From SAR86 cluster bacterium (GTDB lineage: Bacteria; Pseudomonadota; Gammaproteobacteria; Magnimaribacterales; D2472): 38,524 nt of DNA. Positions within the stretch are counted from its first letter, which is position 1; each line of letters begins with the position of its first letter. The stretch covers positions 1 through 38,524 of the forward strand of contig QOPC01000005.1 in assembly GCA_003331545.1 (NCBI GenBank). The letters run 5' to 3'. Shown here piece by piece: positions 28,902-36,607 of the stretch. A program made the position numbers and the translations under genes. A model generated the notes under the pieces. The model had not been told where the DNA came from, searched no databases, and saw only the letters and a program-made list of their open reading frames with translations.

Positions 28902-28907
28902 CACTTT

Positions 28908-29078
28908 TGACTGGTTCATTCGCCAACTTATCGAGATTCTTTGAACCGATAATATATTTAAAGGTGATTTTCCACTGCTGCTGTTGTGCATTACCATTGA
29001 GGGAAGCCTGATGCAGTAAGAGCTTCGCCACCTGACCTTTCGGTTCAGGTAACGATGGGTAGCGGTGAATTGGTTTTT
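28908..29078 (+). ncRNA. ssrS: 6S RNA
   Basis: 6S RNA mimics an open promoter and sequesters sigma-70 RNA polymerase in stationary phase. The roughly 171-nt segment has a terminal helix (ATTCGCC with GGTGAAT, then ATCG with CGAT). It also has the conserved GAACCGATAATAT on the 5' side (E. coli GAGCCGATAT), a helix pairing GGTG/CACC and ACTGC/GCAGT across the upper arm, GGGAAGCCT, and a 3' hairpin ACCTGACC-TTTC-GGTTCAGGT. A T-run follows the terminal helix. Position between zapA and ygfA is the classical one. Ends are approximate. Confidence 0.9.
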
Positions 29079-29091
29079 AGTTAACGCTGAT

Positions 29092-29658
29092 GTGAAAACA
29101 AAATACAGACAATCTATTCTTGAAGCAAGAAACGCTTTAAGTTCATCAGAGGTAGTCAACCTATCCTCACAAATAATAAAAATTGCCGATGAAAAATTGG
29201 CTCTAACAGATGTCAAAACATTAGGTAGTTATTTTGCTGCAAACAATGAAGTAGATATGAAGAACTTAAATAATAATAGGAGGGAATTAAATCGTATTAC
29301 CACCTATCCAGTAATTGGGCCTAATCAATCAATGAAATTTATTGAGCCTAAGAATTCAGAAAGGCTCAACAAAAATAAATTCAATATATTTGAACCGTCA
29401 GATGGAAATGAAATTGCTCCAATGATGCACAAAGTAATAATTGTTCCAACAGTTGGAATAGATTCTAATGGTTATAGATTGGGGCATGGTGGGGGCTATT
29501 ATGACAGGCTGTTAATGCCTATTTTGCAAAATAAAAACAGGCCTCTGATTATCGGTTTGATTTACGATTTTCAATTTATCAATGAAGCCATAAACGAAGC
29601 ACATGATATAAAGTTGGATATTGTATTTTCTGAGAAAAAAATTGAGGAATTTTCTTAA
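29092..29658 (+). CDS. ygfA: 5-formyltetrahydrofolate cyclo-ligase
   Basis: The enzyme converts 5-formyl-THF to 5,10-methenyl-THF with ATP. The product has 188 residues with the C-terminal signature IVPTVGIDSNGYRLGHGGGYYDRLL. The GTG at 29092 is preferred: an earlier in-frame GTG at 29065 lies within the 6S RNA terminal helix, while the family starts close to KYRQSILEARNAL. It is probably transcribed as the downstream part of the 6S unit, as in E. coli. It converges on the epoxide hydrolase gene with 15 AT-only nt between. Confidence 0.93.
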   Translation: MKTKYRQSILEARNALSSSEVVNLSSQIIKIADEKLALTDVKTLGSYFAANNEVDMKNLNNNRRELNRITTYPVIGPNQSMKFIEPKNSERLNKNKFNIFEPSDGNEIAPMMHKVIIVPTVGIDSNGYRLGHGGGYYDRLLMPILQNKNRPLIIGLIYDFQFINEAINEAHDIKLDIVFSEKKIEEFS

Positions 29659-32366: not shown

Positions 32367-33008
32367 ATGAGCAACGCAAAATTAAATGCTTCACTAGAAG
32401 CTATCGAATACATAAAACCTAAAATCAATATGGATTCGATCATTGGAGTTGGTACAGGATCTACTGTTAACTTCTTTATTGAAGAGCTTGCAAAAATTAA
32501 ACAACTTTTTAAAGGAGCAGTCTCTAGCTCAGAAGCATCTTCGCAGCTATTAGAAGCGCACGATATTGAAGTATTTGAGTTAAATGATGTAAATGAGATT
32601 TTGGTTTACATTGATGGAGCTGATGAAGTCGATCCATCAAATAATCTAATTAAAGGAGGAGGTGGCGCTCACACCAGAGAAAAAATCGTAGCTTCTGCGT
32701 CTAACGAATTTGTATGCATAGTGGATGAATCGAAGTTGGTAAAGGCCTTGGGTAATTTCCCCTTACCAATAGAGGTAATGATAAAGAGTAGAAGTTACGT
32801 TGCTAGAGAAGTTGTTAAACTTGGTGGGACACCAATTTTGAGGGCTGATTTTATAACTGACCAAGGCAATCAAATTCTAGATATTGCTGATATAAAAATT
32901 GATAAGCCTGAGATTTTAGAACAAAGACTTAATTTAATACCGGGTGTATTAGACAACGGAATATTTGCAAATTGCAGACCAAGTAAATTAATTATTGGAA
33001 GGAATTAA
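32367..33008 (+). CDS. rpiA: Ribose-5-phosphate isomerase A
   Basis: RpiA interconverts ribose-5-phosphate and ribulose-5-phosphate in the pentose phosphate pathway. The 213-residue enzyme shows VGTGSTVNFFIEEL, IDGADEVDP and IKGGGGAHTREKIVAS, with the catalytic acid and base in the latter two, plus EVMIKSRSYV and RPSKLIIG. Its 3' end overlaps the convergent peroxidase gene by 4 nt. Confidence 0.96.
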   Translation: MSNAKLNASLEAIEYIKPKINMDSIIGVGTGSTVNFFIEELAKIKQLFKGAVSSSEASSQLLEAHDIEVFELNDVNEILVYIDGADEVDPSNNLIKGGGGAHTREKIVASASNEFVCIVDESKLVKALGNFPLPIEVMIKSRSYVAREVVKLGGTPILRADFITDQGNQILDIADIKIDKPEILEQRLNLIPGVLDNGIFANCRPSKLIIGRN

Positions 33009-33529
33009 AGTACAGCTTGAATTGCTGAGACCAATCTTTCTGATTCTGGCGTAACACTAGACTTGTAATGCTCGATCACCTCACCATCTCTGCCAATCAA
33101 ATATTTAGCAAAATTCCATTTAGGCTCTTTGCCAGATGCAGCTATTAGCTTCTTATAAAAAGGATGGGCCTTTTTTCCTTTAACTTTTGCAGTTGCAAAC
33201 ATTGGAAACTCTACACCATATTCAGTGCTGCAAAATTCTGCTACTTTAGATTCAGCAGAATATTCTTGGAAGAAATCTCTTGATGGAATACCTATGACCA
33301 TCAACCCATCATCTTTAAATTTAGTATAAAGTCTTTGTAAGCCAGCATATTGAGGAGTGTACCCGCACCTACTTGCAACATTTACAACCAAAATAACATT
33401 TCCTGAATATTCACATAGATTTTGCTCATCATCCGAATCCAAGAGACGCAGATTGCTATCTAGAATATCAGAGCAAGCAAAGATTGATGTTGTAAAAACT
33501 GATAAAGCAAGTAGAAGGAATGTTTTCAT
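33005..33529 (-). CDS. Exported glutathione-peroxidase-family protein
   Basis: The 174-residue thiol peroxidase family member carries an N-terminal signal peptide (about 1-18). The cut may precede C19, although the lipobox is not canonical. Peroxidatic C55 lies in ASRCGYT (cysteine, not selenocysteine), and W138-N139 in KWNFAKYLI complete part of the active site. The usual NQF glutamine segment is RDF here (84-86). It probably removes hydroperoxides in the periplasm. The start ATG follows AGGA closely and lies 10 nt after a 29-codon ORF on the same strand. Confidence 0.88.
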   Translation of the reverse strand: MKTFLLLALSVFTTSIFACSDILDSNLRLLDSDDEQNLCEYSGNVILVVNVASRCGYTPQYAGLQRLYTKFKDDGLMVIGIPSRDFFQEYSAESKVAEFCSTEYGVEFPMFATAKVKGKKAHPFYKKLIAASGKEPKWNFAKYLIGRDGEVIEHYKSSVTPESERLVSAIQAVL

Positions 33530-33539
33530 TCCTGTGATA

Positions 33540-33629
33540 TTACACTACTGGTGAAATGGCGTAAACAGAAGATATGAATATTGAAACTAATACTGCTAAC
33601 TCGAATTTATCCACTATTTTTCTTTTCAT
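33540..33629 (-). CDS. Possible 29-residue hydrophobic peptide upstream of the peroxidase
   Basis: An ATG frame of 29 codons encodes a basic, charged start (MKRKIVDK) followed by a hydrophobic helix (LAVLVSIFISSVYA) and a short ISPVV end. A good AAGGAAAAGG site precedes it, and it ends 10 nt before the peroxidase ATG. The layout suggests a genuine co-transcribed small membrane peptide or leader. I recognise no family. A type I toxin-like peptide is conceivable, but no antisense RNA is seen. Confidence 0.45.
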   Translation of the reverse strand: MKRKIVDKFELAVLVSIFISSVYAISPVV

Positions 33630-33647
33630 AATTAAAACCTTTTCCTT

Positions 33648-33677
33648 AAAAAAACGTGGAGGACTTGCGCCCTCCAC
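33648..33677 (-). terminator. Intrinsic (rho-independent) terminator
   Basis: A 7-bp GTGGAGG/CCTCCAC stem with an 8-nt loop is followed, after one G, by seven T on the minus strand. It is the only convincing intrinsic terminator I found in the window. It lies between a strong promoter and the downstream peptide and peroxidase genes. Confidence 0.75.
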
Positions 33678-33723
33678 CATTCCAGAGATTACCAACAATT
33701 CATAGGGGGGAGAGATGTTGGTC
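33648..33723 (-). ncRNA. Candidate small RNA or attenuated leader with a C-rich hairpin loop
   Basis: From the predicted start near 33723 the RNA immediately forms a 7-bp hairpin (ACCAACA with TGTTGGT) whose 18-nt loop contains UCUCUCCCCCC. A 13-nt linker and the intrinsic terminator follow. Exposed C-rich loops that pair with G-rich ribosome-binding sites are typical of many trans-acting small RNAs. It could equally be a regulated leader of the peptide/peroxidase transcript. No known RNA family is recognised. Confidence 0.5.
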
Positions 33724-33728
33724 CAACT

Positions 33729-33756
33729 ATTATAATGACTTATATTTAAATATCAA
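33729..33756 (-). promoter_or_regulatory. Strong sigma-70 promoter reading toward the peroxidase gene
   Basis: TTGATA (5 of 6 matches) and a perfect TATAAT on the minus strand are 16 nt apart. This is the best-matching promoter seen in the window and drives the candidate RNA starting about 6 nt downstream. Confidence 0.6.
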
Positions 33757-33902: not shown

Positions 33903-36062
33903 ATGACAAACGAATTAAAAGGTAAAGTAAATTATAGTATTAATGGAAATATAGCTATTCTTGAAGTTGATAACCCCCCCGTAAACCCCTTAAGTAGTGG
34001 GGTTAGAGCTGGACTGTCAGAGTCTATAGCTAAAGCAAATGCTGACGAGTCAATTGAAGGTATTATTTTAACTGGCGCTGGTAGATCATTTATTGCGGGT
34101 GCTGATATTTCTGAATTTGGTAAAAGCTATGATGGTCCAGACCTTCATGCAGCACTTCGTGAGATAGAATTTAGCAATAAACCAGTCTTAGCAGCAATTA
34201 ATGGAGCTGCTCTTGGTGGTGGTTTAGAAACTGCACTAGTCTGTAATTACAGAATGGGAACAAATCAGGCGATTGTTGGGCTTCCAGAGGTAAATTTAGG
34301 CCTTTTGCCTGGTGCAGGCGGTACGCAAAGGCTTCCAAGGCTTATTGGACCATCTCAGGCGCTAAAAATGATGCTCGCTGGTACTCCCCTAACTGCTAAG
34401 AAAGCACTTGAACAAGGCATCATAGACGCAATTTCTGAAAATTCTTTGATTGAAGATGCAATTGCATTTCTTCAGGAAAAAATTGGCTTAAGCGAACATC
34501 CAAAAGTAAGGGATAAAAATGAAAAGGTGCTTGAAGCAAGAGGCGCAGAAAATGTCTTAGCTGAAGCTAAAGCGCTGGCCGCTAAAACTAGAAGAGGTCA
34601 ATTTGCACCTGGCCAAATTATAGCTTGTGTAGAAGCAGCAATTAATGAGGATGATTTTGATGTTGGGATGAAAAAAGAATCTGATTATTTTCTTGAATGT
34701 TTAATGAATCCTCAACGTGAGGCTATGATTCATATTTTCTTTGGAGAACGAGCAGCTTCAAAAATTGCTGATATACCAAAAGAAACTCCTCTAATGCCAA
34801 TCAAGAAAGCTGGAATTATTGGTTCAGGAACAATGGGCGGTGGTATAGCAATGAATCTAGCAAATGCAGGAATTCCTGTATTAATTCTTGATCAAGATGA
34901 AAAGAATTTAGAAAAGGGAATGAGTGTAATAGAAAAAAATTACCAAATGATGGTTGATCGAGGCAGAATGTCTCAAGAGCAAAAAGAAATGGTTATGGGT
35001 TTAATCACTCCTACCCTTTCGTATGATGATCTTTCTGATGTGGACATTGCAGTGGAAGCAGTCTATGAAAACCTAGATCTAAAACAGGAAATTTTTAAAA
35101 CTTTAGATGAGGTTACTAAAGGCGATGCCATACTTGCATCTAATACATCAGGCTTAGATATAGATGCTATAGCATCAGTTACTAATAGACCTGGAAAGGT
35201 AGTGGGTACTCACTTTTTTAGTCCTGCTAATGTTATGCGATTGCTTGAAGTTGTCAGAGGAAAAGATTCATCTGATGAGACAATGGCAACAGTTATGTCT
35301 TTAGGTAAGAAAATGAAGAAAGCAGCAGTTGTTTCACTCAATGCTCCAGGATTCATTGGAAATAGAATGCTTGCCGGATATACACACCAGGCAAATATGT
35401 TATTGCTTGAAGGAGCATTACCAAATCAAGTAGATAGCGCATTAGAATCTTTTGGTATGAGTATGGGTCCATTCAGGATGTTAGATCTAGTGGGTTTAGA
35501 CTTGGGATGGAGAGCAAGAAAATTAGCAGATATTGAAACCCCTCTTGCTAACAAAATTTCAGATGAATTATGTGAACGAGATAGATTTGGGCAAAAAAAT
35601 TCTAAAGGATTTTATAACTATTCTGAAGGCTCAAGAGCTCCAAATCCTGCGCCGGAAAACGAAGAAATTTATAAAGAGATCTCAAATAAAAATAATATAG
35701 AAAGAAGAGAGATATCTGATCAGGAAATCATAGATAGATGTATTTTAGCCTTAGTAAATGAAGGCGCAAGAATTTTAGAAGAGGGCGTTGCTCAAAGATC
35801 AGGGGATATGGATATAGTATATATCAATGGATATGGCTTCCCAATATGGAGAGGCGGACCTATGTTCTATGCAAATCAGCTCGGTTTAGAGGAAGTGATC
35901 AATAAAATGAGTGCTTTTTCTGAATTAGATGAAGAATTTTGGAAACCAGCGCCTTTATTAAAGAAATTATCAGAAATATCAGGTACATTTGGAGAAGCTC
36001 CAGGATTGGATGAAAGAGCAGAGTTATTGAGCTTCAAAAATGCAAATATGGGCGGAGTATAG
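33903..36062 (+). CDS. Multifunctional enoyl-CoA hydratase / 3-hydroxyacyl-CoA dehydrogenase
   Basis: The 719-residue enzyme performs two steps of fatty-acid beta-oxidation. The N-terminal crotonase domain has E109 (GGGLETAL) and E129 (LPEVNLGLLPGAGG) as catalytic pair. The NAD-binding domain starts at GSGTMGGG (307-314), with THFFSPANVM holding the dehydrogenase histidine, and two C-terminal helical domains follow (NRMLAGY and EGVAQRSGDMD). The order is that of FadB/FadJ and peroxisomal bifunctional enzymes, the latter being closest in look. No thiolase gene is adjacent. Confidence 0.92.
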   Translation: MTNELKGKVNYSINGNIAILEVDNPPVNPLSSGVRAGLSESIAKANADESIEGIILTGAGRSFIAGADISEFGKSYDGPDLHAALREIEFSNKPVLAAINGAALGGGLETALVCNYRMGTNQAIVGLPEVNLGLLPGAGGTQRLPRLIGPSQALKMMLAGTPLTAKKALEQGIIDAISENSLIEDAIAFLQEKIGLSEHPKVRDKNEKVLEARGAENVLAEAKALAAKTRRGQFAPGQIIACVEAAINEDDFDVGMKKESDYFLECLMNPQREAMIHIFFGERAASKIADIPKETPLMPIKKAGIIGSGTMGGGIAMNLANAGIPVLILDQDEKNLEKGMSVIEKNYQMMVDRGRMSQEQKEMVMGLITPTLSYDDLSDVDIAVEAVYENLDLKQEIFKTLDEVTKGDAILASNTSGLDIDAIASVTNRPGKVVGTHFFSPANVMRLLEVVRGKDSSDETMATVMSLGKKMKKAAVVSLNAPGFIGNRMLAGYTHQANMLLLEGALPNQVDSALESFGMSMGPFRMLDLVGLDLGWRARKLADIETPLANKISDELCERDRFGQKNSKGFYNYSEGSRAPNPAPENEEIYKEISNKNNIERREISDQEIIDRCILALVNEGARILEEGVAQRSGDMDIVYINGYGFPIWRGGPMFYANQLGLEEVINKMSAFSELDEEFWKPAPLLKKLSEISGTFGEAPGLDERAELLSFKNANMGGV

Positions 36063-36073
36063 GTCTTAAAAGC

Positions 36074-36607
36074 TTATAAATAGATGTTTACAGCGGTTTT
36101 GGCTGGTATCATGTTAAAAAGCTCTAAAACATCTTGATTTAGCATTCTTATACACCCATGTGAGGCCTTTTTTCCAATTAAACCCTCTTCATGAGTACCA
36201 TGTATGTAGATATATCTATCATAAGAGTCTACATTACTACCCTTATTAAATCCTTCGGTTAATCCTGTAAGCCACATTATTCGGGTGGTAATGAAATCAT
36301 CTTCGGAATCAATAGCTTCATGAATTACCTCAGCAGCTTGAGGAATATGTTGACGACTTACAAAAAAATGATATTTATCAACATTTGTTCCTATTTTCGT
36401 CTGGATTTCGTGTTTCCCAAGGGGTGTCATCAAGGAATTTTCAATTTGCCCTTCTCCAAAAGCTGAACTAGATATTGGGTAACTTCTTATAAGTACCTCA
36501 TTATGAGTTAAGTATAATCTTTGCTCTGAAATACTAATCTCAATTGAGTAATCAGCATATGAAGAAACTGAAACTATTGAGAAGATTATTAGGATAAAAT
36601 TTTTCAT
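36074..36607 (-). CDS. L,D-transpeptidase (YkuD domain), exported
   Basis: The 177-residue protein has a signal peptide (about 1-18) and a YkuD domain ending in IHGTHEE...SHGCIRM with H136, H150 and catalytic C152. Such enzymes make 3-3 peptidoglycan crosslinks or attach lipoproteins to the wall in the periplasm. It follows lnt with a 4-nt overlap, pairing wall and lipoprotein functions. Its exact role among L,D-transpeptidases is undetermined. Confidence 0.9.
   Translation of the reverse strand: MKNFILIIFSIVSVSSYADYSIEISISEQRLYLTHNEVLIRSYPISSSAFGEGQIENSLMTPLGKHEIQTKIGTNVDKYHFFVSRQHIPQAAEVIHEAIDSEDDFITTRIMWLTGLTEGFNKGSNVDSYDRYIYIHGTHEEGLIGKKASHGCIRMLNQDVLELFNMIPAKTAVNIYL

Follow-up and report, generated by a model that had tools for sequence, protein, structure and literature searches.

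A conserved two-hairpin RNA with a C-rich loop in SAR86 bacteria, upstream of a small peptide and a glutathione peroxidase gene and in solo copies

C-rich-loop RNAs and the SAR86 element

In terminator-type riboswitches and attenuators, the 5′ leader of a message places a hairpin before a terminator-like stem, with the genes downstream on the same strand. The sRNAs RoxS and RsaE carry a single-stranded C-rich motif that pairs with Shine-Dalgarno (SD) regions, and Hfq is not essential to them. Both belong to the C-rich-motif sRNAs of the Firmicutes (PMC8216469). The cyanobacterial Yfr1 and Yfr10, which also occur in marine streamlined genomes, are two-hairpin sRNAs of 54–69 nt in which a pyrimidine motif is ultraconserved and one hairpin is a terminator; the motif lies in a stem loop in Yfr10 and between the hairpins in Yfr1 (PMC2190773 and PMC6778093, in excerpt). 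In the Rhizobiales, SmelA075 and SmelA099 present CCUCCUCCC loops in three or four hairpins (PMC3927594, in excerpt). CcsR1-4 of Rhodobacter, which are linked to stress defence, are co-transcribed with the small protein gene CcaF1 and are freed from the joint transcript (PMC10253847, in excerpt); a related name, 'cuckoo RNA', appears in the title of a reference of the same paper.

We analysed a window of SAR86 DNA, by which we mean the whole stretch of 38,524 nucleotides, and examined an RNA element on its minus strand together with the two reading frames that follow it:

33729–33756, minus strand: promoter TTGATA-16-TATAAT, predicted by sequence match
33691–33722, minus strand: hairpin P1, ACCAACA/UGUUGGU, 7 bp, 6 nt past the −10 box (sequence, fold and covariation)
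33698–33715, minus strand: exposed C-rich 18-nt loop of P1, UCUCUCCCCCCUAUGAAU (sequence and predicted fold)
33678–33690, minus strand: linker with a UCUGGAA element, found in peptide-bearing (type-1) copies only
33656–33677, minus strand: hairpin P2, GUGGAGGGC GCAA GUCCUCCAC (structure scan and covariation)
33648–33654, minus strand: run of seven U, with P2 a predicted intrinsic terminator; lost in most same-genus copies
33638–33647, minus strand: SD-like AAGGAAAAGG preceding the small ORF (sequence)
33540–33629, minus strand: small ORF of 29 aa, MKRKIVDKFELAVLVSIFISSVYAISPVV, containing a single hydrophobic stretch that by eye looks membrane-type
33005–33529, minus strand: gpx, glutathione peroxidase-like, above the Pfam GSHPx cut-off and below those of the NCBIfam models

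The element is a real, conserved RNA. A first-pass annotation had described, on the minus strand between 33756 and 33648, a TTGATA-16-TATAAT promoter and a 7-bp hairpin closing a C-rich loop of 18 nt; both are present, sequence and fold agreeing on the hairpin. The promoter fits 11 of 12 hexamer positions and is the top sigma-70-like match among those listed in the window, the runner-up fitting 10 of 12. The annotated terminator was right in its seven U and wrong in its stem, which was given as 7 bp and has 9 bp, including one G-U pair, capped by a GCAA loop. The 76-nt element is predicted to fold at −28.0 kcal/mol, compared with a mean of −17.0 kcal/mol (sd 2.5) for dinucleotide shuffles (z −4.4), none of 200 shuffles folding equally well. 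P2 with its seven U is the strongest of the 16 terminator-like sites listed in the window, where such sites are rarer than in shuffles (8 vs 12.6 and 8 vs 13.0); the remark that the genome is almost free of intrinsic terminators thus holds for the window, the scope that was scanned. A tiny ORF starting at the loop AUG (M-x-C-W-stop) was rejected, its frame being broken in several relatives and no SD preceding it by eye.

The element and six related loci gave no Rfam match at the gathering score, in agreement with the earlier annotation, which recognised no described family, and relaxed-threshold Rfam searches with the same sequences returned nothing credible, riboswitch families included. The Rfam matches in the window are a tRNA and 6S RNA alone. 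The latter (RF00013, 58.7 bits) lies at 28905–29080 on the plus strand and overlaps the start of an ORF (29065–29658) resembling 5-formyltetrahydrofolate cyclo-ligase, which we take to be the usual 6S RNA neighbour arrangement.

Set beside the described systems, the SAR86 RNA shares its two-hairpin build with Yfr1 and Yfr10 and, with Yfr10, a motif placed in a stem loop, and ACUCCUC, part of the Yfr1 motif, recurs in 32 of the 55 copies aligned; however, the 11-nt motif ACUCCUCACAC occurs in none of the 55, the phylum is different and no Rfam match links them. A peptide ORF accompanies the SAR86 RNA, whereas none is described for Yfr1 or Yfr10 in the excerpts of PMC2190773 and PMC6778093. With the SmelA and CcsR RNAs it has in common a hairpin loop bearing an anti-SD-like C-rich motif, but CCUCCUCCC is found in 0/55 copies and there is one C-rich hairpin per RNA. 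It further differs from CcsR in lying upstream rather than downstream of its ORF, in its sigma-70-like promoter and in its peptide, a shorter one for which DUF1127 gave no match. Its size and structure also set it apart from RoxS/RsaE, a relation compared via Rfam alone. The leader hairpin, terminator-like stem and same-strand genes recall a riboswitch or attenuator; yet no Rfam riboswitch matches at the gathering score, and the solo copies described below have no same-strand gene downstream. By analogy, the RNA may resemble Yfr1/Yfr10 and CcsR/CcaF1 in how it would work, with the motif of neither family found in it, and our best reading is that it is a new RNA family of a known kind. A survey of the SAR86 literature on small or non-coding RNA and riboswitches, made up mostly of papers available without subscription, yielded no SAR86 regulatory RNA by title.

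Conservation and covariation across SAR86

A DNA search within the window's genus gave matches over most of the query at the locus in 18 of 26 genomes (a tally of 26/26 at E 10 takes in chance matches), and a covariance model raised the number with a clear copy to 20 by adding G015 and G022. An orthologue of gpx is assembled in 21 of the 26 (E below 1e-70) and has the RNA directly upstream in 20 of these, the contig stopping at P2 in the remaining one, G002; the other five assemblies are without that gpx. In an 18-sequence alignment analysed with RNAalifold, six P1 and eight P2 pairs are intact in every sequence, four of them with two-sided changes, while two extra pairs that the program places within the loop are disrupted, one in 2 and the other in 1 of the 18 sequences.

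A covariance model built from 18 leaders (R1) matches 95 of 107 genomes of the window's SAR86 family, f1, at E 0.1 or better, and does so in all ten genera. Outside the window's genus, the family genomes with no R1 match are G030, G054, G063, G064, G077 and G105, in which the locus may be missing. The family alignment comprises 56 matches, 55 of them distinct, with one antisense match in L087. Across the 56, 96.6% of 821 pair cells are paired and 12 of 15 pairs show a two-sided change; none of 500 shuffles reaches any of the covariation measures, and slid controls give 2–5 two-sided pairs. This alignment is model-fitted and hence biased towards the structure; by eye, the same stems can be recognised in a MAFFT alignment of 55 copies.

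A second model (R2, 54 sequences), run over 203 genomes of the order, matches 111, namely 96 from the window's family (including the G002 fragment), one from family f3 and 14 from family f4. The single f3 match has no C loop. The f4 matches are weak (E 1e-4 to 0.01 in the 14 genomes), and in the eight genomes from which copies were fetched P1, P2 and the linker differ while the loop core, CTCCTCTCCCC, stays in the P1 loop (8/8); one or two small ORFs precede gpx. This second SAR86 family has a divergent form of the RNA. In part of f4 (L135, L136, L137 and L138), the RNA is separated from gpx by two small ORFs in succession. Among 369 genomes sampled from the class, two gave a match, both from the window's family; none of the f4 and f2 members listed in that sample reaches E 0.001, so that the divergent form escapes the model at this threshold. 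Model matches in G003:C97, G005:C6 and G165:C41 have no C loop and were dismissed as chance or unrelated, as was a pattern match on a viral contig, which sits within a reading frame of the phage.

The peptide–gpx message and the solo copies

We examined 64 family copies more closely. They are part of all matches, since 95 family genomes match and some have two or three copies, and they leave out L095 (a false match), L053, L054, L056, L058 and the solo copies of G093, G096 and G100. The window's copy and 52 others (53/64) lead into a conserved peptide ORF of 24–35 aa, counted from the first start codon; the remaining 11 do not. We call a copy with the peptide ORF after it type 1 and a solo copy type 2, a definition that would make a count of 53/53 for the peptide circular, and we therefore give it as 53/64.

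In the window the 29-codon ORF, which the annotation passed over, begins 18 nt past the U-run, and gpx comes next on the same strand. The peptide contains a single hydrophobic stretch, finishes in conserved residues (AISP or AITP, for example) and is 29 codons long in 18/18 same-genus copies. Its frame is coding, with an uncorrected pN/pS of 0.27 and stops in 0/18 copies, while each of the other frames is stopped in 18/18. Pfam gave no match, DUF1127 included, for the window peptide and two relatives; an NCBIfam match in 1 of 18 members, to an unrelated model at E 0.013, was discarded as weak. Downstream, gpx was found by BLAST in 27 of 28 fetched peptide-type copies. Upstream, the model match starts 5–8 nt past the −10 box in 53/53 type-1 copies, and a UCUGGAA-like linker is present in all 53, in 0/11 type-2 copies and in 0/8 f4 copies, the search expressions for linker and peptide having been drawn up after the sequences were seen. 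Since the peptide and gpx are conserved downstream, the window's RNA would serve at least as the 5′ leader of their message. The annotation of a stand-alone sRNA at this locus thus gives way to that of a leader of a small-peptide mRNA, as in most of the examined copies.

In seven f2 and f3 genomes, the frame ahead of gpx is of the window's L,D-transpeptidase type (YkuD), with neither RNA nor peptide, which suggests that RNA and peptide were gained or lost together, as one unit, at the junction of these two genes. A YkuD gene also occurs in the window (36074–36607, minus strand); it neighbours gpx or the RNA in f2, f3 and f4, and in the window a FadB/FadJ-like gene (33903–36062) stands between it and gpx.

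The 11 solo copies come from genera g2, g7 and g9 and are likewise without a UCUGRA-like linker. Ten adjoin tRNA-Val(GAC) as well as an exonuclease I-like gene in convergent orientation (one such protein, when scanned, scored 158 bits, below the curated cut-off of 260), and L072 lies elsewhere. The same promoter is found in 11/11 within two mismatches and the C-run in 10/11. In the window's genus, model searches gave no convincing solo copy, two weak extra matches having no C loop on inspection. To the extent that the RNA had been annotated as a free trans-acting sRNA, these relatives do look like free sRNAs, whereas the window's own copy is an mRNA leader. The solo copies favour action in trans over a purely cis-acting leader, and they are the strongest argument that the RNA may do more than control its next gene. 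L072 (G098:C10:19919-19986) is the third copy in one genome, and its C-run is partly paired (unpaired probability 0.34).

The loop is predicted to be open in most copies: the C-run is exposed in 53 of 55 sequences, with an unpaired probability above 0.8 in 44 of 45 type-1 and 9 of 10 type-2 copies. CTCCTCTCCCC occurs in 23/53 type-1, 7/11 type-2 and 8/8 fetched f4 copies, and a T-led C-run in 52/53, 10/11 and 8/8, respectively; some copies, such as L077 and L072, have altered loops. The promoter is conserved as well, with no more than one hexamer mismatch in 53/53 type-1 copies (spacer 16) and 10/11 type-2 copies, which bears out, as a predicted feature, the annotation's view that the RNA has a promoter of its own.

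The U-run is a different matter. Stems and promoter persist in the relatives, but a run of at least five U in the 14 nt that follow P2 is present in 3/20 same-genus copies, compared with 16/33 other type-1 and 6/11 solo copies, and the window's seven U are therefore atypical of its genus. The annotation had named missing conservation of stems, promoter and terminator in close relatives as grounds for refutation, and for the U-run this part of its test goes against it. A free short RNA in the 17 of 20 same-genus copies with fewer than five U would need processing; the short RNA could thus arise by termination in the window and by processing elsewhere.

Possible modes of action

We put the probability at about 0.52 that the RNA is leader and C-rich-loop sRNA in one, the window's member of a conserved SAR86 RNA family that would act in trans. 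Transcription is predicted to begin just before P1, so that the message would open with the C-rich-loop hairpin followed by P2. Part of the transcripts would stop at P2, where the U-run is strong in the window and in some relatives; alternatively, release could come from cleavage in the A/U-rich spacer past P2. Either route would yield an RNA of about 70–76 nt, while other transcripts would read through into the 29-aa peptide and gpx. The loops of the short RNA and of the solo paralogues in other genera might then pair in trans with purine-rich, SD-like mRNA sites in an Hfq-free manner, the RNA forming one arm of a putatively co-regulated set with the peptide and gpx, joined in several genomes by pseudoazurin. 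Pairing through the loop is the best inference because the loop is constant and solo copies exist. The seven f2 and f3 genomes with gpx and no RNA weigh against this reading.

No clear targets emerged from the loop sequence. Near-complements of the loop, self matches included, number 29 vs 23, 31 vs 28, 6 vs 11 and 23 vs 19 against the reversed pattern, which is no clear enrichment. Among 30 fetched complement sites, five are the RNA genes themselves and 25 are non-self (two overlapping), one of which (L170) lies ahead of an ORF's first start codon; this site, G000:C5:2764, lies at an ORF that is short-chain-dehydrogenase-like by sequence, with a predicted pairing energy of −15.9 kcal/mol. For 12-nt loop complements, none of ten non-self sites inspected precedes a start codon. 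The target search with 10-nt and 12-nt complements was thus fruitless, and the proposed masking of G-rich ribosome-binding sites drew no direct support from it. Hfq (PF17209) was found in 0/9 SAR86 genomes (G000, which is 71% complete, G018, G048, G052, G060, G095, G104, G190 and G112), while the same search detected it in 5 of 14 named control genomes, E. coli among them.

An unlikely yet serious alternative is that the RNA is purely a cis-acting attenuator of the peptide–gpx mRNA, in which a pseudoknot between the C loop and the 5′ arm of P2 would set read-through and a ligand or protein would shift the balance. The 5′ arm of P2 is G-richer than C in 48/53 type-1, 11/11 type-2 and 8/8 f4 copies and hence complementary to the loop; for the window's pair, the predicted energy is −11.4 kcal/mol, and the possibility of this pairing allows for a cis reading. 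Such a role would also fit the peptide ORF behind most copies, the confinement of the linker to the peptide-bearing ones and the five or more U in 19/53 type-1 copies. However, the solo copies keep promoter, loop and P2 although their next gene is convergent, most same-genus copies have no U-run, and the predicted folds form P2 and leave the loop open.

We find it rather improbable that the element is a protein-binding or stabilising 5′ cap, in which P1 and P2 would protect the message, or loop and UCUGGAA would bind an RNA-binding protein with the solo copies as decoys. The regular start of type-1 matches shortly after the −10 box (53/53), a loop and linker that are constant and have no clear mRNA complement, and the result for Hfq would all suit a cap; but no protein candidate came to light, and solo and f4 copies keep the loop but not the linker, which would leave the loop as the sole protein site. 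That an isolated intrinsic terminator and a coincidental hairpin came together by chance, which the window with its single short element could not by itself exclude, has a negligible probability and counts as already refuted by the family-wide conservation and covariation, the 0/200 shuffles folding equally well and the restriction of the matches among 369 class genomes to two from the window's family.

Returning to the combined leader and trans-acting RNA, the promoter hints at a further link to other genes. The core TTGATAN5WTATAARTN3TATAAT, with up to two mismatches, occurs at 19 sites in six genomes, whereas the reversed pattern occurs at 4. Eleven of the 19 have at most one mismatch; they belong to type-1 RNAs (six), solo RNAs (two, in G052 and G095) and pseudoazurin promoters (three, in G052, G095 and G104; L185:1552-1995, L182 and L183). 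The G052 protein scores above the NCBIfam pseudoazurin cut-off and those of G095 and G104 were assigned from sequence similarity; in the latter two genomes pseudoazurin is preceded by a small ORF, at least 36 codons long. We infer from these sequences that a shared regulator or a sigma preference may stand behind the core.

More speculatively, and on balance improbably as a whole, this would amount to a SAR86-specific, Hfq-free riboregulation in which a single transcript would encode a tiny membrane peptide together with glutathione peroxidase and also give rise to a C-rich-loop RNA that damps the translation of many messages bearing an SD; solo paralogues that share the core, alongside pseudoazurin with the core, would make up a redox or copper-stress regulon in cells with few regulators. 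SAR86 bacteria are among the most abundant bacteria of the surface ocean, and the RNA, the peptide and the promoter core, each of them defined, can be sought directly in existing ocean metatranscriptomes. The locus also raises the question of how RNAs with a C-rich loop function in genomes in which Hfq is not found. As for the eight core sites with two mismatches, one is the solo RNA of G104 and seven lie at unrelated genes.
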